DNA from: Lucinisca nassula
Lineage: Eukaryota > Mollusca > Bivalvia > Lucinida > Lucinidae
Reading direction: 5' to 3'
Length of the DNA: 64,000 nucleotides
Assembly: GCA_963580285.1 (NCBI GenBank)
Contig: OY757011.1
Location: 119,479,874 to 119,543,873, forward strand
Made by a program: the position numbers and the translations under genes. Positions 15,624-63,455 of this stretch are shown in pieces; within the stretch, counting starts at the first letter, position 1; every line of letters begins with the position of its first letter. The notes below the pieces were generated by a model that saw only the letters and a list, made by a program, of their open reading frames with translations, had not been told where the DNA came from and searched no databases.

Positions 15624-16717
15624 GCTTCAGCTGAAGTGCACGACCCGCCGGATGCTTTTAGCTTTATGAGTGTTACCATATATGGGTATGGCGGCCATTT
15701 TGGTCATGTGACCTGGACCTAAAACGGTTCCCCCAATAAATGCGCCTTATCGTAAGGAGCAAAAATATATCTAATACTTTAGTACTGTATTCTGAATCGT
15801 TTGCAGGATAAAATGAATTCTCACTTTTCCAATACAAAAGCATATGTGTCAAAGTTTGACCTAGGCACAAAGAAGGTCAAGGTCAACCCAGGGTCACCAT
15901 TTTAGCAATTTATGATGGGCCTACGTCCCAGATGTTATTTATCAAGTTTCGTGGAAATCTGCCAAGTGGTTCTGGAGAACACTATTTTGAAGGGTTTTTT
16001 TACCATATATGGCTTGGCGGCCATTTTGGTCATGTGACCTGGACCCCATGAGCAAATTTTGGTTTCCTCCATCCCATAGAGGCTCCATATGAAATTTCAC
16101 CTTAATCGGCCCAACGGTTTCCGAGGAGAATCAGTTCGAAAATTTTCACATTTTTCGCCTCGGCGAGGCTATACTAAATGGAATGTAATATTTCGCAAGT
16201 TCATTGGTTAGACCTCATTGATACTATCAGTATGCCAAAAATTGTTTAAATATTCCAAGCGGTTAAGTCACTATCACCAATTTTCACAAACGGGTTACGG
16301 ACGGACAGACAGACAGACCATATATGGCTTGGCGGCCATTTGGGTCATGTGACCTGGACCCCATGAGCAAATTTTGGTTTCCCCCATCCCTTAGAGGCTC
16401 CATATGAAATTTGACTTCAATCGGCCCAACGGTTTCCGAGGAGAAGCAGTTCGAAAATTTTCACATTTTTCGCCTCGGCGAGGCTATACCAAATGGAATG
16501 TAATATTTCGTAAGTTCATTGGTTAGATCTCATTGATATCTATCAGTATGCCAAAATTGTTTAAATATTCCAAGCGGTTACATGTAAGTCACTATCACCA
16601 ATTTTCACAAACGGGTTACGGACGGACAGACAGACTGACAGAATGACACGGTGATTTTAGGGCACTCTTAGAAAATCAACCGACTTCAGTCGGTCGCTTT
16701 TTCTACGGGTCGTGCAA
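15624..16717 (+). mobile_element. K element 1, Helentron-like non-autonomous
   Basis: The left end has a palindrome CTTCAGCTGAAG followed by TGCACGACCC; the right end has the hairpin CCGACTTCAGTCGG, a T run, then GGGTCGTGCA, the complement of the left terminal motif. The interior has direct repeats starting ACCATATATGG at 15675, 16002 and 16317 (period about 315 bp), with a GGACAGACAGAC microsatellite between units. Tandem core plus microsatellite plus 3' hairpin is the layout of Helentron-associated elements of bivalves. No Rep/helicase frame. Confidence 0.65.
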
Positions 16718-36965: not shown

Positions 36966-38880
36966 TCACGCTCCAGTGAGTTGAGCTTATTTCAGCTCAA
37001 CTGTCACGTAAGTGAGCTTTTGGAATCACCTTTTGTCCGTCGTTCGTCGTGCGTGCGTGCGTACGTCCGTAAACAATTTCTTCAAACGATATCTCATCCT
37101 AAACCACTGGTCGGATTTTGACCAAACTGCGCAGGAATGATGCTTAGGTGGTCCCCTTTCATAGTGGTTCAAATGGTTCCGGTCCGGTCCGTTGCACATC
37201 TAGGTCACAGGAGCCAAAAATATATTTTTTTTACTGAAAACTTAAAAAAAATCTTCTTCTCTGAAACCGGACGGCCCAGGTCTTTGATATTTGGTATGAA
37301 GCTTCATCTAGTGGACCTCTACCAAGATTGTTCAAATTAGAGCCCTTGTGCCAAATGCCCCCGCCCCGAGACCCTTTGGTTTTACATTGACTTAAATAGA
37401 GAAAATCTTAAAAAAATACTTCTTCTCTGAAACCGCAAGGCCCAGGTCTTTGATATTTTGTCTGAAGCTTCATCTAGGCGGCCTCTATCAAGATTGTTCA
37501 AATTACAGCCCTGGGACCAAAAATCCTCCCACCCGGGGCCCTTTAGTTTTACATTGGCTTATATAGGAACAGTCTTTAAAAGTCTTCTTCTCTGCAACAG
37601 CAAGGCCCTGGTCTTTGATATTTGGTGTGAAGCTTTATCTAGTGGACCTCTTTCAAGATTGTTCAAATTATAGCTTGAGACCAAAAATGCCCCGGCCCCA
37701 GGGCCCTTTGGTTTTACATAGACGAATATAGGGGAAATCTTTACAAATCTTCATCTCTGAAACCAAAAGGCCCAGGTCTTTGATATTTAATATGAAGCTT
37801 CGCTTAGTGGACCTCTATTAAGATTGTTCAAATTATAGCCCTGGCGCAAAAAATGCCCATTCACCGGGGCCCACTGGTTTTACATAGACTTATATAGGGA
37901 AAATCTTTATAAATCTTCTTGCCGTAAACAAGAAGGCTCAGTTCTTTGATATTTGGTATGAAGCTTTGTCTAGTGGACCTGGACCAAGATTGTTCAAATT
38001 ATAGCCATGGACCCAGTAAATGGCTCCGCCCCAGGGCCCACAGGTATTACATAGATTCAAATAGGGCAAACCTTTAAATATCCTCTTGCCTGAAACCAGA
38101 AGGTCTTTGATATTTGGTATGACGCTTCATCTTGTGGACCTCTAACAAGATTGTTCAAATTATAGTTCAGGGACCAAAATGGCCCCTCCTCGGGGTCCAC
38201 TGGTTTTACATAGACTTATATAGGGAAAAATTTCAAACATCTTCTTGTCTGAAATCACAAGGCCTAGGTCTTTGATATTTAGTATGAAGCTTTGTCTAGC
38301 AGACCTCTACCAAGACTGTTCAAATTATAGCCCTGGGGCCAAAAATGGGCCCACCCCGGTGTCCAATGGTTTTAGATAGACTTATATAGGGAAAACCTTT
38401 GAAAATGTTCTTGTTTGAAACCAGAAATCCAAGGTCTTTGATATTTGGTAAGACGCTTCATCTAGTGGACCTGACCCTGGGGCCAAAAAAGGGCCCACCC
38501 CGGGGCCCATTTACTTTACATAAACTTATATTGGGAGAACCTTTGAAAATCTGATTGTCTGAAACCTGATGGCCAAGGTCTTTGATATTTTGTTTGAAAC
38601 CTGATTGCCAAGGTCTTTGATATTTGGTTTGAAGGCTCGTCTTGTTGATTTCTACCAAGAATGTTCGAATTATAGCCCGTGGGCCAAACATTGCCCCGTC
38701 CCGGGGCCGTCAGGTTTTATATAAACTTATATGAGGAAAACCTTTAAAAATCTTCTTTTCTGAAACCCGAAGGCTCCGATCTTTGATATTTGGTATGAAG
38801 CTTCACCTTTTAGACCCCCTCGAGATTATAGCCCTGGGGGCAATAATGGCCCTCCCTGGGGCCCACTTATTACACTATGG
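36966..38880 (+). mobile_element. Repeat element with ~165-bp tandem core
   Basis: A lead segment (36966-37260) with CACCTTTTGTCCGTCGTTCG, a GTGCGTGC run and CTGGTCGGATTTTGACCAAA is followed by about 10 units of TCTTTGATATTTGGTATGAA, TAGTGGACCTCTACCAAGAT, TGTTCAAATTATAGCCCTGG and CATAGACTTATATAGGG. TCTTTGATAT starts fall at 37281, 37447, 37612, 37777, 37943, 38104, 38269, 38435, 38579 and 38780. Resembles pearl/Helentron-type bivalve elements with variable tandem cores. No coding frame conserved. Confidence 0.75.
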
Positions 38881-47382: not shown

Positions 47383-48118
47383 TTAAACAAATCTTCCGGA
47401 TTTGACAATGAAGTCTTGCACTTTTAGGAATAGCGATTGGTTCTCATGTGGTGCAAGGTTGGTTTTTCCAAACAATAGATCGCTGAGAGTAAAATTGTTT
47501 AGGTCACGTGGTAAGTATATTTCCCTGGCAACTGAATAGTTAGCACATGAGAACAGAAAATGTTTTGCACTATCAAACTCTCCGCAATGACAAGATGGGC
47601 TTGAAACAATATTTTTACGATACAGATCGGAATTAAGTGAACTACAACCCATTCTTAGTCTAGCATGAAGAATTTGACCAATACGCGCACCAGTATTAAA
47701 ATATTTAGGAGGCACTGTGGCGTTTCTGTTTAAGGCGCGTTTGAAAGAAGCTACAGATGTCGCTTCTTTTACATCGTTGGGAAGGTTGTTCCAGGCACGT
47801 ATTGTCGACGGAAAAAAAGAATCCAGGAATAGGCTTGTTTTAGCTCTATAAGTTAGGATATGATCAGAATTTCGAAGATTCTTGAAGAGTAGCAGGGACC
47901 AAGTCAAAGAGATATTCTGGTGCGATACCGTGTAGAGCTTTGTAAAACACTACCAATTTATGCTTGTTCCGACGACTTTGGAGAGACTCCCAACATAGTT
48001 CTGAGAATAGTTTTTCAACACTGCATAATTTGGTTGCTCCTGTTATTATTCGAGCAGCTTCGACATGAATTGCATCGATTTTCTTTAAAATAAAGATTTG
48101 TAAATGTGTGACTTCATC
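47383..48118 (-). pseudogene. LINE ORF2 C-terminal fragment
   Basis: The upstream frame (48148-47864) gives DAIHVEAARIITGATKLCSV and RRNKHKLVVFYKALHGIAPE YL; the downstream frame (47907-47383) gives FFPSTIRAWNNLPNDVKEAT, ASFKRALNR and a Cys/His cluster CHCGEFDSAKHFLFSC. This is the standard region after the reverse transcriptase domain of animal non-LTR elements, ending in a CCHC-type knuckle. The two frames differ by one base in the overlap, so the copy is frameshifted. The 5' side is cut by the J MITE at 48122; endonuclease and RT domains are absent. Confidence 0.75.
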
Positions 48119-54809: not shown

Positions 54810-56147
54810 CGAGGACTGTTCAAATATGAATGCAACTAAGCACATAAAAATGATTCCGTGATAGATTTCGATGAAAAATTTATTTTGTCCCCTCAAAGTA
54901 TTCCCCTTTAACAGATATACAAACTTTCAGTCTTCTGATCCAATCATTGAATGCATTTTGGTAGTCTTTTCGAGGTATACTATGAAGGCACTGGAATATT
55001 GCAGAACCGAGGTGTTTGCGCTGTACAAATTTCGACCAGAAAGGTATTTTTTCAGCCGCGGGAACAAAAAAAAGTCACCCGGGGCAAGGTCAGGGGAATA
55101 CGGGGGGTGAGGGAGTTCAACAACCTTTTCCTGCTTCAGATAGTCTTGCACAATGAACGCCTTGTGCGATGACGCATTGTCATGTAGCAATCTGACATTG
55201 GTCAAACCAGTTGCGGGTCTTCGTTCTTTGAAATATTTCTTCAATTTTCGAAGAACTTTATTCTTGTAAAACTTCGCATTTACAGATTTGCCTTTAGGCA
55301 CAGCAACCTGAATAGCAGGGCCCTGATTTGAAAAGAATATGGCATACATTACCTTCTTGACGCTCATGGTCCGCTTTGCAATGCATGGTCTTTTGCAATA
55401 CTTTGTTGCCCATATTTTGTTCTGAATCTTTCGTTTTGGCTAAAAAAGTGAACCCATGTCTCGTCACCTGTGACGACATTAGCGAAAGACCGTGCATTGT
55501 AATTTGGAAACTTTTTAAGCAACTTCTTGGCGCAGTGAACGCGTGTCTTTTTCTGCTCATCTGTCAACAGATGGGGAACCCATCTAGCACAGATCTTTCT
55601 CATTTTCAAATCCCGTTTCAGAATTGTATGAGCTGCTCCTAATGAGATGCCAACCATACTAGCTATTTGCCTAGTGGTGTATCGTGCATAGGTAGCAACT
55701 ATTTCTTTCACTCTAGCAACCATCTTGGCAAATGTTGCTCTTTTCTGCCGACGATCATATGGTGCATCTTCTGTTGAGCCTAGCACACAGCTGGATTTCT
55801 TACACTAACGAAAAACTGTCGGAAAAGACATTTCATTATGCCCATAAACCGAACATATTTCATCAAAAATGTCTTTGCACCGTATACCAAGAATACAACG
55901 ATTCTTAATATAGGACCGTATTTCAACGGCGTACTCTGACCTTCTTCCAACCATGTTTTGTATTAGTATACAAGAGTAGACAGTGTTAATCGAACAATAT
56001 ACATGGCTAAAGTGTACGGATTTTAACAGGTTTGGTATCAATGTATAGGTAAAATGTTTTTCTACGCTGTGATATTTATTTCCAGGTGATTTTCGCATTA
56101 GTGCATGAGAAAACGTTCTACTTGCATTCATATTTGAACAGTCCTCG
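54810..56147 (-). mobile_element. mariner transposon, 1338 bp, near-intact
   Basis: Perfect 26-bp terminal inverted repeats starting CGAGGACTGTTCAAATATGA, with TA on each side (54808-54809 and 56148-56149). Length and organisation are those of a mariner element with one transposase gene on the minus strand. It is inserted into a D2-type MITE: joining GAGTACTTG to TACCCACAATCTAGG restores the D core. Confidence 0.93.
54880..55954 (-). pseudogene. mariner transposase, one stop and two frameshifts
   Basis: Start ATG at 55954 (MVGRRSEYAVEIRSYIKN), stop TAA at 54880-54882; about 358 codons when gaps are allowed for, as in mariner transposases. The N-terminal region carries helix-turn-helix DNA-binding motifs, including TTRQIASMVGISLGAAHTIL. 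Then WVPHLLTDEQK, the catalytic motif VTGDETWVHFF (first Asp), LLHDNASSH (second Asp) and PPYSPDLAPGDFF (third Asp), with 34 residues between second and third: a DD34D enzyme. Lesions: in-frame TAG at 55805-55807 after FPTVFR; a 1-base deletion near 55441 just after WVHFF; a 1-base deletion near 55022 after GRNLYS. The catalytic residues are intact, so the copy is only recently dead. Confidence 0.92.
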
Positions 56148-56149
56148 TA

Positions 56150-56369
56150 CCCACAATCTAGGTTTGTTAGCAAAAATTAGGAAAATAATGTATATCCCTG
56201 TGAGACGGTTCTTCGAGTACTAGTACCCACAATCTAGGTTTGTTAGCAAAAATAAGGAAACGAATAAATATCCCTGTGACTACACTTTTCTCTGTATAAA
56301 ATGGGATTTAAAGGGGTATGCATTTCACGAACGCGTCGAAATAATGTCATGTACACCACTGCATATTTC
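56150..56369. mobile_element. D2-type MITE remnants around the mariner and fold-back insertions
   Basis: CCCACAATCTAGGTTTGTTA at 56150 and again at 56223, GAGACGGTTCTTCGAGTACT at 56200, then AAAATGGGATTTAAAGGGGT and CATTTCACGAACGCGTCGAA. Two overlapping D2 right halves. GCATATTTC at 56361-56369 is the left target copy of the giant fold-back element. Confidence 0.6.
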
Positions 56370-56479
56370 ACGAGTGTTAAGTTGGTTCCTTATTCCTTAT
56401 TCCTTGTTCCTTATTCCTTATTCCTTGTTCCTTATTCCTTATTCCTTGTTCCTTATTCCTTATTCCTTATTCCTTATTC

Positions 56480-58435
56480 GATTTTCAACTTCATAGTACT
56501 TTGCCACGCGGTGTAACAGAACATTTGCGTATGCCCTAATCATCATCATTTTTACTTCTAAGCATGATGGTATAGGTTTCGAAATCCAGCAGGTATCAAC
56601 GGCGAATAAGGAATAAGGAACAAATCCAAATTTTCCTTATACCTTATTCGATTTTCAACTTCATAGTACTTTGCCACGTGGTGTAACAGAACATTTGCGT
56701 ATGTCCTAATCATCATCATTTTTACTTCTAAGCATGATGGTATAGGTTTCGAATTCCAGCAGGTATCAACGGCGAATAAGGAATAAGGAACAAATCCAAA
56801 TTTTCCTTATTCCATATTCGATTTTCAACTTCACAGTACTTTGCCACGCGGTGTAACAGAACATTTGCGTATGTCCTAATCATTATCATTTTTACTTCTA
56901 AAAAATGATGGTATAGGTTTCAAAATCCAGCAAGTATCAACTGCGAATAAGGAATAAGGAACAAATCATCCAAATTTTCCTTATTCCTTATTCGATTTTC
57001 AACTTCATAGTACTTTGCCACGCGGTGTAACAGGACATTTGCGTATGTCCTAATCATCATCATTTTTACTTCTAAGCATGATGGTATAGGTTTCGAAATC
57101 AAGCAAGTATCAACTGCGAATAAGGAATAAGGAACAAATCTAAATTTTCCTTATTCCTTATTCGATTTTCAACTTCATTGTACTTTGCCACGCGGTGTAA
57201 CAGAACATTTGCGTATGTCCTAATCATCACCATTTTTACTTCTAAGCATGATGGTATAGGTTTCGAAATCCAGCAGGTATCAACGGCGAATAAGGAATAA
57301 GGAACAAATCCAAATTTTCCTTATTCCTTATTCGATTTTCAACTTCACAGTACTTTGCCACGCGGTGTAACAGAACATTTGCGTATGTCCTAATCATCAT
57401 CATTTTTACTTCTAAGCATGATGGTATAGGTTTCAAAATCCAGCAGATATAAACTGCGAAAAGGAATAAGGAACAAATCCAAATTTTCCTTATTCCTTAT
57501 TCGATTTTCAACTTCATAGTACTTTGCCACGCGGTGTAACAGGACATTTGCGTAAGTCCTAATCATCATCATTTTACTCCTAAGCATGATGGTATAGGTT
57601 TCGAAATCCAGCAAGTATCAACTGCGAATAAGGAATAAGGAACAAATCCAAATTTTCCTTATTCCTTATTCGATTAGGACATACGCAAATGTTCTGTTAC
57701 AGTACTTTGCCACGCGGTGTAACAGAACATTTGCGTATGTCCTAATCATCACCATTTTTACTTCTAAGCATGATGGTATAGGTTTCGAAATCCAGCAAGT
57801 ATCAACTGCGAATAAGGAATAAGGAACAAATCCAAATTTTCCTTATTCCTTATTCGATTTTCAACTTCACAGTACTTTGCCACGCGGTGTAACAGAACAT
57901 TAGCGTATGTCCTAATCATCATCATTTTTACTTCTAAGCATGATGGTATAGGTTTCGAAATCCAGCAGGTATCAACGGCGAATAAGGAACAAATCCAAAT
58001 TTTCCTTATTCCTTATTCGATTTTCAACTTCACAGTACTTTACCACGCGGTGTAACAGAACATTTGCGTATGTCCTAATCATCATCATTTTTACTTCTAA
58101 GCATGATGGTATAGGTTTCAAAATCCAGCAGATATAAACTGCGAATAAGGAATAAGGAACAAATCCAAATTTTCCTTATTCCTTATTCGATTTTCAACTT
58201 CATAGTACTTTGCCACGCGGTGTAACAGGACATTTGCGTATGTCCTAATCATCATCATTTTTACTTCTAAGCATGATGGTATAGGTTTCGAAATCCAGCA
58301 AGTATCAACTGCGAATAAGGAATAAGGAACAAATCCAAATTTTCCTTATTCCTTATTCGATTTTCAACTTCATAGTACTTTGCCACGCGGTGTAACAGAA
58401 CATTTGCGTATGTCCTAATCATCATCATTTTTACT
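56480..58435 (+). repeat. Left satellite arm, ~170-bp units
   Basis: The unit contains TACTTTGCCACGCGGTGTAA, CAGAACATTTGCGTATGTCC, TAATCATCATCATTTTTACT, GCATGATGGTATAGGTTTCG and GCGAATAAGGAATAAGGAAC. ATGATGG starts at 56564, 56734 and 56905 fix the period at 170-171 bp. A local micro-inversion is at 57672-57747. Confidence 0.92.
57672..57747. repeat. 30-bp micro-inversion hairpin in the array
   Basis: Arm 57672-57701 (GATTAGGACATACGCAAATG onward) is the exact complement of 57718-57747, with a 16-base loop GTACTTTGCCACGCGG. It replaces the normal TTTTCAACTTCA segment. Confidence 0.9.
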
Positions 58436-58466
58436 GGATTTCGAAACCTATACCATCATGCTTAGA

Positions 58467-61257
58467 AGTAAAAATGATGATGATTAGGACATACGCAAAT
58501 GTTCTGTTACACCGCGTGGCAAAGTACTATGAAGTTGAAAATCGAATAAGGAATAAGGAAAATTTGGATTTGTTCCTTATTCCTTATTCGCAGTTGATAC
58601 TTGCTGGATTTCGAAACCTATACCATCATGCTTAGGAGTAAAAATGATGATGATTAGGACAAACGCAAATGTCCTGTTACACCGCGTGGCAAAGTACTAT
58701 GAAGTTGAAAATCGAATAAGGAATAAGGAAAATTTGGATTTGTTCCTTATTCCTTTTCGCAGTTTATATCTGCTGGATTTTGAATCCTATACCATCATGC
58801 TTAGAAGTAAAAATGATGATGATTAAGACAAACGCAAATGTTCTGTTACACCGCGTGGCAAAGTACTGTGAAGTTGAAAATCGAATAATGAATAAGGAAA
58901 ATTTGGATTTGTTCCTTATTCCTTATTCGCCGTTGATACCTGCTGGATTTCGAAACCTATACAATCATGCTTAGAAGTAAAAATGATGATGATTAGGACA
59001 TACGCAAATGTTCTTTTACACCGCGTTGCAAAGTACTGTGAAGTTGAAAATCGAATAAGGAATAAGGAAAATTTAGATTTGTTCCTTATTCCTTATTCGC
59101 AGTTGATATTTGCTTGATTTCGAAACCTATACCATCATGCTTAGAAGTAAAAATGATGATGATTAGGACATACGCAAATGTTCTGTTACACCGCGTGGCA
59201 AAGTACTATGAAGTTGAAAATCGAATAAGGAATAAGGAAAATTTGGATTTGTTCCTTATTCCTTATTCGCAGTTGATACTTGCTGGATTTCGAAACCTAT
59301 ACCATCATGCTCAGAAGTAAAAATGATGATGATTAGGACATACGCAAATGTCCTGTTACACCGCGTGGCAAAGTACTATGAAGTTGAAAATCGAATAAGG
59401 AATAAGGAAAATTTGGATTTGTTCCTTATTCCTTATTCGCAGTTTATATCTGCTGGATTTTGAAACCTATACCATCATGCTTAGAAGTAAAAATGATGAT
59501 GATTAGGACATACGCAAATGTTCTGTTACACCGCGTGGCAAAGTACTGTGAAGTTGAAAATCGAATAAGGAATAAGGAAAATTTGGATTTGTTCCTTATT
59601 CGCCGTTGATACCTGCTGGATTTCGAAACCTATACCATCATGCTTAGAAGTAAAAATGATGATGATTAGGACATACGCTAATGTTCTGTTACACCGCGTG
59701 GCAAAGTACTGTGAAGTTGAAAATCGAATAAGGAATAAGGAAAATTTGGATTTGTTCCTTATTCCTTATTCGCAGTTGATACTTGCCTGATTTCGAAACC
59801 TATACCATCATGCTTAGAAGTAAAAATGATGATGATTAGGACATACGCAAATGTCCTGTTACACCGCGTGGCAAAGTACTGTGAAGTTGAAAATCGAATA
59901 AGGAATAAGGAAAATTTGGATTTGTTCCTTATTCCTTATTCGCCGTTGATACCTGCTGGATTTCGAAACCTATACCATCATGCTTAGAAGTAAAAATGAT
60001 GATGATTAGGACATACGCAAATGTTCTGTTACACCGCGTGGCAAAGCTCTATGAAGTTGAAAATCGAATAAGGAATAAGGAAAATTTGGATTTGTTCCTT
60101 ATTCCTTATTCGCCGTTGATACCTGCTGGATTTCGAAACCTATACCATCATGCTTAGAAGTAAAAATGATGATGATTAGGACATACGCAAATGTCCTGTT
60201 ACACCGCGTGACAAAGTACTATGAAGTTGAAAATCGAATAAGGAATAATGAAAATTTGGATTTGTTCCTTATTCCTTATTCGCAGTTTATATCTGCTGGA
60301 TTTTGAAACCTATACCATCATGCTTAGAAGTAAAAATGATGATGATTAGGACATACGCAAATGTTCTGTTACACCGCGTGGCAAAGTACTGTGAAGTTGA
60401 AAATCGAATAAGGAATAAGGAAAATTTGGATTTGTTCCTTATTCCTTATTCGCCGTTGATACCTGCTGGATTTCGAAACCTATACCATCATGCTTAGAAG
60501 TAAAAATGATGATGATTAGGATATACGCAAATGTTCTGTAAAACCGCTTGGCAAAGTACTATGAAGTTGAAAATCGAATAAGGAATAAGGAAAATTTGGA
60601 TTTGTTCCTTATTCCTTATTCGCAGTTGATACTTGCTGGATTTCGAAACCTATACCATCATGCTTAGAAATAAAAATGATGATGATTAGGACATACGCAA
60701 ATGTCCTGTTACACCGCGTGGCAAAGTACTATGAAGTTGAAAATCGAATACGGAATAAGGAAAATTTGGATTCGTTCTTTATTCCTTATTCGCAGTTTAT
60801 ATCTGCTGGATTTTGAAACCTATACCATCATGCTTAGAAGTAAAAATAATGATGATTAGGACATACGCAAATGTTCTGTTACACCGCGTGGCAAAGTACT
60901 GTGATGTTGAAAATCGAATAAGGAATAAGGAAAATTTGGATTTGTTCCTTATTCCTTATTCGCCGTTGTTACCTGCTGGATTTCGAAACCTATACCATCA
61001 TGCTTAGAAGTAAAAATGATGATGATTAGGACATACACAAATGTTCTGTTACACCGCGTGGCAAAGTACTATGAAGTTGAAAATCGAATAAGGAATAAGG
61101 AAAATTTGGATTTGTTCCTTATTCCTTATTCGCCGTTGATACCTGCTGGATTTCGAAACCTATACCATCATGCTTAGAAGTAAAAATGATGATGATTAGG
61201 ACATACGCAAATGTTCTGTTACACCGCGTGGCAAAGTACTATGAAGTTGAAAATCGA
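58467..61257 (-). repeat. Right satellite arm, ~170-bp units, inverted
   Basis: The same unit as the left arm, in reverse complement, about 17 copies. Unit variants include a GCAGTTGATACTTGC versus GCCGTTGATACCTGC class and a TTTATATCTGC class; runs of variants occur in an order that mirrors part of the left arm. Confidence 0.92.
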
Positions 61258-61559
61258 ACAAGGAATAAGGAATAAGGAATAAGGAACAAGGAATAAGGAA
61301 TAAGGAATAAGGAATAAGGAACAAGGAATAAGGAATAAGGAATAAGGAACAAGGAATAAGGAATAAGGAATAAGGAACCAACTTAACACTCGTGCATATT
61401 TCACTTTTCTCGGTTAACCGTGATACAATTTGTGACACGGATTTTTTTAGTCATGTGAGGACTGTTTTTGAAGGGCATTCACTGTCCAGATTGTGGGTAA
61501 GCATTAGAAACTAAGTGATTTTGAGAAAGAAGTAAATAAGCATGTAAACATACTCATTT

Positions 61560-62346: not shown

Positions 62347-63455
62347 GCTTCAGCTGAAGTGCACGACCCGCCGGATGCTTTTAGCTTTATGAGTGTTACC
62401 ATATATGGGTATGGCGGCTATTTTGGTCATGTGACCTGGACCTAAAACGGTTCCCCCAATAACTGCGCCTTATCGTAAGGAGCAATATATCTTATACTTT
62501 AGTACTGTATTCTGAATCGTTTGCAGGATAAAATGAATTCTCACTTTTCCAATACAAAAGCATATGTGTCAAAGTTTGACCTAGGCACGAAGAAGGTCAA
62601 AGTCAACCCAGGGTCACAATTTAGCAATTTATGATGGGCCTACATCCCAGATGCTATTTATCAAGTTTCGTGGAAATCTGCCCAGTGGTTCTGGAGAAGG
62701 GTCTTTACCATATATTGCTTGGCGGCCATTTTGGTCATGTGACCTGGACCCCATGATCAAACTTTGGTTTCCCCCATCCAGTAGAGGCTCCATATGAAAT
62801 TTGACTTCAATCGGCCCAACGGTTTCCGAGGAGAAGCAGTTCGAAAATTTTCACATTTTTCGCCTCGGCGAGGCTATACTAAATGGAATGTAATATTTCG
62901 CAAGTTCATTGGTTAGATCTCATTGATATCTATATGTATGTCAAAAATTGTTTAAATATTCCAAGCGGTTAAGTCACTATCACCAATTTTCACAAACGGG
63001 TTACGGACCGTACATACACACAGACCATATATGGCTTGGCGGCCATTTTGGTCATGTGACCTAGACCCCATGAGCAAATTTTGGTTCCCCCAATCCCATA
63101 GAGGCTTCATATGAAATTTGACTTCAATCGGCCCAACGGTTTCCGAGGAGAAGCAGTTCGAAAATTTTCACACTTTTCGCCTCGGCGAGGTTATACTAAA
63201 TGGAATGTAATATTTGGCAAGTTCATTGGTCAGATCTCGTTGATATCTATCAGTATGCCAAAAATTGTTTAAATATTCCAAGCGGTTAAGTCACTATCAC
63301 CAATTTTCACAAACGGGATACGCCGGGACGGACGGACAGACTGACAGACTGACAGAATGACAGAATGACCGATTGACAGAATGACCCGGTGATTTTAGGG
63401 CACTCTTAGAAATCAACCGACTTCAGTCGGTTGCTTTTTTCTGCAGGTCGTGCAA
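62347..63455 (+). mobile_element. K element 2, Helentron-like non-autonomous
   Basis: Collinear with 15624-16717: GCTTCAGCTGAAGTGCACGA at the left; direct repeats from ACCATATAT at 62399, 62708 and 63024; a GGACGGACAGACTGACAGAC run; 3' hairpin CCGACTTCAGTCGG; end CAGGTCGTGCA. It differs from copy 1 by small indels and a longer GACAGAATGAC run. Confidence 0.65.

Follow-up and report, generated by a model that had tools for sequence, protein, structure and literature searches.

Satellite arrays lie inside a dispersed family of apparently non-autonomous, fold-back-type elements in the bivalve Lucinisca nassula

How does a satellite array come to be inverted upon itself between ends that look like those of a transposon? 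The question is raised by a 64,000-nucleotide stretch of the genome of the bivalve Lucinisca nassula (GCA_963580285.1, contig OY757011.1, positions 119,479,874 to 119,543,873, forward strand), hereafter the window, which is part of contig C2 in an assembly of 2,926,205,003 bases and 696 contigs. At window positions 56370-61393 lies a block of 5,024 bp, an inverted satellite array with transposon-like ends, flanked on both sides by the identical 9-mer GCATATTTC. We conclude that the block very probably belongs to a dispersed, apparently non-autonomous family of fold-back-type cut-and-paste DNA transposons, that satellite arrays of this genome sit inside mobile elements, and that they probably travel as mobile elements. 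The block is composed as follows:

56361..56369, plus strand: left copy of the target-site duplication, 9 bp, GCATATTTC
56370..56385, plus strand: left terminus ACGAGTGTTAAGTTGG, a 16-mer with 445 occurrences assembly-wide
56386..56479, plus strand: left subterminal heptamer array (TTCCTTA)n, from Tandem Repeats Finder
56463..58435, plus strand: left arm of 170-bp satellite, forward, from Tandem Repeats Finder; 12 matches to the unit probe
58434..58466, no strand: hinge, a direct switch from forward to inverted satellite, from reading the sequence
58434..61272, minus strand: right arm of 170-bp satellite, inverted, from Tandem Repeats Finder; 17 matches to the unit probe
61256..61377, minus strand: right subterminal heptamer array, from Tandem Repeats Finder
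61378..61393, minus strand: right terminus, exact reverse complement of the left terminus
61394..61402, plus strand: right copy of the target-site duplication, 9 bp, GCATATTTC

A sequence-only reading of this DNA had described a satellite in two opposed arms, exact inverted repeats at the outer ends and a 9-bp direct repeat around the whole, and each of these was recovered: the arms by Tandem Repeats Finder together with the unit probe, the termini as exact inverted repeats opening with ACGAGTGTTAAGTTGG, and the duplication at the positions given above. Heptamer arrays lie immediately inside both ends. The same reading had placed a 31-base spacer at 58436-58466, which has to be corrected, as these bases are not foreign but ordinary satellite in the orientation of the right arm. 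Satellite of the left arm ends after CATTTTTACT, and the opposed array enters the monomer at another point. The two arms are thus shifted in register, and pairing between them would leave about 31 bases at the hinge unpaired.

The window element is one of hundreds of copies. A 700-base query from its left end found 1,081 candidate places in the assembly, and among the 40 of them that were scored most matches start within 1-2 bases of window position 56370, where the terminus begins. The leading 20-mer of the terminus has 211 + 211 exact matches compared with 0 + 0 for the reversed control, and the 445 occurrences of the 16-mer in the 2.93-Gb assembly are preceded by A in 98 cases, C in 121, G in 154 and T in 72; the termini of the family are ACGAGTGTTAAG-like. 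Terminus positions are complete on contigs C1-C15, to which the pair counts refer, later contigs being left out. The 309 termini on these contigs form 111 neighbouring pairs that face inward (plus, then minus) within 150 kb, as against 13 neighbours in all other orientations (6 ++, 4 -+ and 3 --). The inward pairs are spread over 12 of the contigs and measure 244 to 106,429 bp with a median of 6.3 kb; 41 of them are at least 10 kb and 11 at least 30 kb long. Three short pairs of 1.15-1.43 kb lie about 100 kb apart at C9:94440610-94656096 and are perhaps a segmental duplication carrying one insertion.

Flanks were read on both sides for 42 pairs, which comprise 10 that were read fully or in 10-kb stretches (the window, L009, L011, L012, L013, L015, L017, L018, L022 and L024), 3 small, 10 long, 10 short and 7 further long pairs, plus L021 and L025. 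An exact 9-bp duplication, whose sequence changes from locus to locus, was present in 32 of the 42. By size, it was present in 6 of the 10 short pairs and in 16 of 18 pairs of at least 14 kb; counting only pairs of at least 30 kb, the figure is 11 of 12. When left and right 9-mers of different loci were compared, none of the 1,722 cross pairs agreed exactly and 4 agreed with at most one mismatch. The duplications have an A+T content of 66%, and their first base is G in 17 of 32. The excess of terminus matches over the reversed control, together with the locus-specific duplications, shows that the observation is not due to chance. Two features of fold-back elements were seen here, namely a duplication of fixed length (9 bp) at dispersed sites and long inverted arms holding tandem repeats.

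Uninserted sites point in the same direction. The flanks of 13 elements were joined with a single 9-mer and aligned to the assembly; the resulting counts are of alignments and not of independent loci, and some of the fetched loci overlap. Alignments to uninserted repeat copies ran gap-free across the junction for L022 (45 of 51 spanning alignments), L029 (48/53), L013 (12/48) and L009 (3/17), and the uninserted paralogous sites of these four elements carry the 9-mer once. None of 73 spanning alignments was gap-free for L018, whose own duplication has a one-base indel, and neither was the single one for L031; the other 7 of the 13 elements, the window element included, yielded no spanning alignment. 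The earlier description of a fold-back-like element with arms made of full satellite units is therefore borne out by paired termini, 9-bp duplications and uninserted paralogous sites.

The arms themselves behave like satellites. Among 696 units taken from the window and 20 loci, the mean difference between units is 2.8% within an arm, 3.1% between the arms of one element and 3.2% between elements, and the closest relative of a unit often sits in another element. Five common monomer types are set by a few linked sites; the three-unit higher-order repeat "ade" (types a-d-e) occurs 27 times, compared with a mean of 3.8 and a maximum of 10 in shuffled arrays, and the arms of L019 and L020 are nearly pure for one monomer type. 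Type words of five units are common to arms of different elements more often (0.031) than in shuffles (0.009, maximum 0.012). Like satellites, the arms amplify in blocks, and the common pool of units is spread across the elements. The lengths of left and right arms within an element are uncorrelated (Spearman 0.13, P 0.67, 13 elements, some arms being cut by the fetched stretch). We rejected a co-evolution of the two arms of an element, since its support (P 0.02, 13 elements, with some arms cut by the 10-kb stretch) rests on L020, of which both arms consist of one monomer type, and P rises to 0.22 when this element is left out. Each monomer also holds four heptamers.

Copies also differ in what lies between the arms. 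The smallest, L029, consists in its 244 bp of two termini, heptamers and part of one unit, and is flanked by the duplication ATAGAAATG. Some larger copies have a core between the arms, for example L021 (12.1 kb), of which the 8.1-kb core is largely made of other repeats, including a 22-bp palindromic tandem repeat. Within this core (L021 4010-12115) lie arrays of the 22-bp palindrome, with the unit TATCTCGTTATAACGAGATAGC, and a 1-kb inverted repeat at 85%; these are probably nested elements. L017 and L027, which lie at different places, have in common a shortened 3.2-kb core that is 98% alike with identical junctions at both ends, and differ in their unit numbers. L021 and L025 share 12,028 bp at an identity of 99.8%, a stretch that begins at the left terminus and takes in a left arm of 18 units and the core; their right arms hold 6 and 37 units, respectively, and neither locus has a duplication. 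This divergence and the missing duplications could both be due to an exchange within the right arm with another element.

In 12 core-less copies the arms meet directly, at 8 different junctions. The hinge falls inside the inverted repeat of the monomer, GGAATAAGGAA...TTCCTTATTCC, in five of these copies and at seven different places in the other seven. The monomer hairpin folds better than shuffled sequences (z -4.9; 1 of 200 shuffles as good). The simplest reading is that the core was lost repeatedly by a switch between the arms.

Several long elements were sampled at intervals. In the 49.8-kb element at C1:209940425-209990269, which has the duplication GCATAAAGA, forward satellite fills all four samples at 2-16 kb and inverted satellite all four at 31-46 kb, with family core in both of the samples between them, at 21 and 26 kb. 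The duplication of a 92-kb element on C15, GTTTTTTTC, is a low-complexity word, and inverted satellite was read in all five spot samples of this element, taken at 15, 30, 45, 60 and 75 kb. Inner arms built of a second, GC-rich satellite with a unit of 105 bp occur in a 33-kb element on C3 and a 32-kb element on C2. A sample near the centre of the former (L105) captured the switch of orientation of this satellite, which was found in three of the elements sampled. At either end of the 106-kb element, whose duplication is GATGAAATG, lies the 170-bp satellite, adjoined by the 105-bp satellite in opposite orientations at the two ends; other repetitive stretches follow further in, the family core lies near the middle, and many of 20 samples of 300 bp taken every 5 kb match neither satellite nor core, so that the interior is accounted for in part. 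Near its right end (L093 1-2866, C1:43116026-43119025) a composite repeat of about 1.3 kb occurs twice, in which 105-bp satellite is followed by roughly 0.4 kb of other sequence, more 105-bp satellite and then 170-bp satellite.

What could move such elements? No coding sequence was recognised in the core among the reading frames tested, 20 in number (6 of 17 listed in L021 and 14 of 48 listed at 35 or more amino acids in L026), none of which had a Pfam match over the cut-off. The best of them, a FLYWCH match at L026:1009-1299 on the minus strand (E 0.011), was treated as chance because unrelated families reached E 0.033, 0.091 and 0.12 among the same 20 frames. P elements are not known to make 9-bp duplications. 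A length of 9 bp lies within the range of 8-11 bp described for Mutator-like elements (MULEs; PMC6446971). The MULE domain (Pfam PF10551) has at least 130 matches in the assembly, with 150 of 295 candidates scored, and of the 93 matches listed on C1-C15 none falls between paired termini; the nearest of them is 283 kb away from a terminus. The sequence-only reading had called the block MULE-related, a kinship that stays putative: the one feature pointing to the Mutator superfamily is the duplication length. A helper with different ends is a possible source of transposase. Separately, four MULE-domain matches in open frames of 993 amino acids lie about 10.5 kb apart at C6:155057844-155089512 on strands + + - -, an inverted cluster of transposase genes.

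Several observations weigh against a mobile family of this kind. A partner within 150 kb is missing for 87 of the 309 termini, and an exact duplication is missing in 10 of the 42 pairs: two have one mismatch, two a one-base indel, two further pairs differ at 2 and 3 positions, and no recognisable duplication was found at L015, the 46-kb pair C3:82210161-82256445, L021 and L025. The insertion site of the window element has no uninserted paralogue in the assembly, where its joined flanks match only themselves. Conservation gives no support to the heptamer as a binding site, as the heptamer blocks rank 31st of 170 circular shifts; a single origin of the core-less form is not supported, the five shared hinges being only 93-96.5% alike pairwise and no closer than random units; and neither the core frames nor the comparison of MULE matches with terminus pairs revealed a transposase or other helper. 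One alternative would be an ordinary satellite array that was inverted by chance between coincidental 9-mers. Although a 170-bp unit with higher-order repeats resembles any satellite, the recurrent terminus, the 111 inward pairs and the 32 exact duplications in 42 refute this for the pairs examined, the arrays of the window and the paired copies lie within mobile-element ends instead of standing alone, and we regard this alternative as almost certainly wrong. Long perfect palindromes are a known class of assembly artefact, arising from mis-joined or chimeric reads, and our analysis is based on the assembled sequence. Such an origin is nevertheless very improbable, given that the outer flanks differ and are joined by a locus-specific 9-bp duplication, that the hinges vary among copies, and that the two arms of an element do not mirror each other, either in the number of units or in the order of types.

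Two other explanations concern the large arrays. The longest pairs might not be single units of transposition but two separate elements, or an element into which other DNA has inserted; the 46-kb pair without a duplication and the long stretches of neither satellite in the samples of the 106-kb pair would fit this, and units bounded by fold-back elements are known, such as the Drosophila TE of Ising mentioned in PMC6431247. We consider it unlikely, because exact duplications enclose 11 of the 12 pairs of at least 30 kb, the samples of the 49.8-kb element run in order from forward satellite (4/4) through core (2/2) to inverted satellite (4/4), and the 106-kb element has the 105-bp satellite in opposed orientation near both ends and the family core near its middle. 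A more serious contender, which we put somewhat below an even chance, is that short elements alone transpose and that arms of tens of kb arise later in place by unequal exchange, so that arrays are seeded and not moved. This agrees with the uncorrelated arm lengths, with the difference of 31 units in one arm between the same-core copies L021 and L025, and with higher-order repeats as a sign of block amplification in place; a duplication marks an insertion and says nothing of the size at insertion. On the other hand, the five-unit words common to different elements exceed shuffles, and L021 and L025 have in common, from the terminus onwards, an 18-unit arm of about 3 kb and an 8.1-kb core at 99.8%. 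This identity starts exactly at the terminus, so that arrays of at least this size were copied to a new site, even though both copies lack a duplication. The claim of the sequence-only reading that transposition seeds and moves a satellite thus stands in so far as arrays lie inside transposed units; movement of large arrays at full size is less secure, growth in place being the alternative.

Returning to the fold-back-type family, what is observed is that insertions are dispersed and flanked by 9-bp duplications, that the copies have their termini in common, that arm length varies and that there are several cores and several hinges. We propose that a transposase supplied in trans would recognise the terminus ACGAGTGTTAAGTTGG, and probably also the subterminal heptamers, and would make a 9-bp staggered cut at insertion; the insertions and duplications are plain to see, and the enzyme and cut-and-paste movement are what they suggest. 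By analogy with Galileo, the heptamers may be putative subterminal binding sites, of which longer arms would carry more. The ancestral plan would have been a central core between two opposed arms of 170-bp satellite, each arm followed outwards by a heptamer array and a terminus. The higher-order repeats and the same-core copies with different arm lengths suggest that the arms become longer or shorter in place, as blocks of one to many units are duplicated in tandem or exchanged unequally. The core would have been lost repeatedly through an inverted switch between the arms, often in the monomer hairpin, giving core-less palindromes like that of the window; the different switch points are observed, and template switching is the presumed mechanism. 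Exchange between arms of different elements could produce the occasional copies without a duplication. In its widest form, which we put somewhat below an even chance, the proposal is that the satellite family is the body of a transposon, that a trans-acting transposase moves arrays of tens of kb, the largest about 100 kb long, each as one non-coding unit, and that through unequal exchange in the arms old monomers are amplified and new satellites incorporated.

The nearest precedent is Tetris, a fold-back transposon of Drosophila virilis and D. americana whose inverted arms are internally repetitive, with tandem units of about 220 bp (PMC4079207). Tetris makes duplications of 8-10 bp, is non-coding, has modular rearranged copies, of which three structurally complete ones were found, with arms of up to 1,735 bp, and its autonomous partner was not found; its arm repeats became building blocks of satellites, and long arrays are described as amplified arm repeats (PMC4079207). 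The Lucinisca family resembles it in the fold-back form, tandem-repeat arms, lack of coding capacity, modular copies and link to satellites, and no autonomous partner was found for it either. By description, which is the level of this comparison, it differs in its 111 terminus pairs on 12 contigs, sizes up to 106 kb, duplications of 9 bp, a unit of 170 bp, arms of tens of kb inside the duplication and a second satellite. What is new relative to Tetris is the larger number of copies, arms ranging from part of a unit to tens of kb, 9-bp duplications around elements as long as 106 kb, the presence of more than one satellite in the arms and the record of hinges.

Other systems share single traits. 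Rehavkus of arthropods and annelids has inverted repeats of 26-400 bp and encodes a PHD-finger transposase (PMC6446971); with it and other fold-back or Mutator-like elements the Lucinisca family has in common the 9-bp duplication, a minisatellite within the element and inverted ends, whereas no transposase was found in our family. The combination of a 9-bp duplication and tandem repeats inside the element, as in Rehavkus, was found here. Tm1, a Mutator/fold-back family of root-knot nematodes, has composite inverted repeats with redundant motifs of about 14 bp, duplications that are 9 bp long in most cases (8-10 bp in 45 of 53), short derivatives and a known encoded transposase, and a crossover was suggested for a copy without a duplication (PMC3169594). 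The composite inverted repeats, 9-bp duplications and short derivatives recur in Lucinisca; the motifs of Tm1 are not satellite units, and its transposase is encoded. Galileo of Drosophila, our model for the role of the heptamers, likewise has long, internally repetitive inverted repeats, which hold extra transposase binding sites, but it belongs to the P superfamily and its arms are about 1 kb (PMC3688188). Helentrons of the Pacific oyster carry satellite-like arrays, which are dispersed as part of a mobile element (PMC7492417). They are rolling-circle elements, whereas the Lucinisca family has inverted termini and a 9-bp duplication. Helentrons are not known to have target duplications or inverted satellite arms. 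A literature search with the letters of the satellite and the terminus returned no matching paper, and among titles and the opening lines of abstracts no report of fold-back elements with satellite arms of this size was found.

How a satellite spreads to many sites while its copies stay alike is a long-standing question. Tetris has already been named as a source of satellite repeats, with short arms; the paired ends and exact duplications described here place satellite arrays of 30-106 kb within the limits of single insertions. If large arrays move intact, they would be among the largest non-coding cut-and-paste units and would provide a means by which satellite or heterochromatin is founded at new sites, and transposition together with tandem amplification would explain the spread of a homogeneous satellite library through chromosome arms. 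The varied hinge junctions could serve as a natural record of inverted template switching at hairpins.

The surroundings of the window element hold other repeats and remnants. About 600 bp from it, on the minus strand at 54927-55786, two overlapping reading frames look like a broken mariner-like transposase; the downstream frame has matches, each falling slightly short of its cut-off, to Pfam DDE_3 (E 9e-6) and to Transposase_1 (E 1.3e-4). A 174-amino-acid frame at 47383-47907 on the minus strand resembles by eye the end of a non-LTR reverse transcriptase and had no Pfam match at E 0.001. A separate tandem array at 37247-38472 (about 166 bp, 7.4 copies) is, by inspection, not related to the element, and two separate two-copy tandem repeats of about 315 bp, at 16002-16639 and 62707-63322, have similar consensus units.

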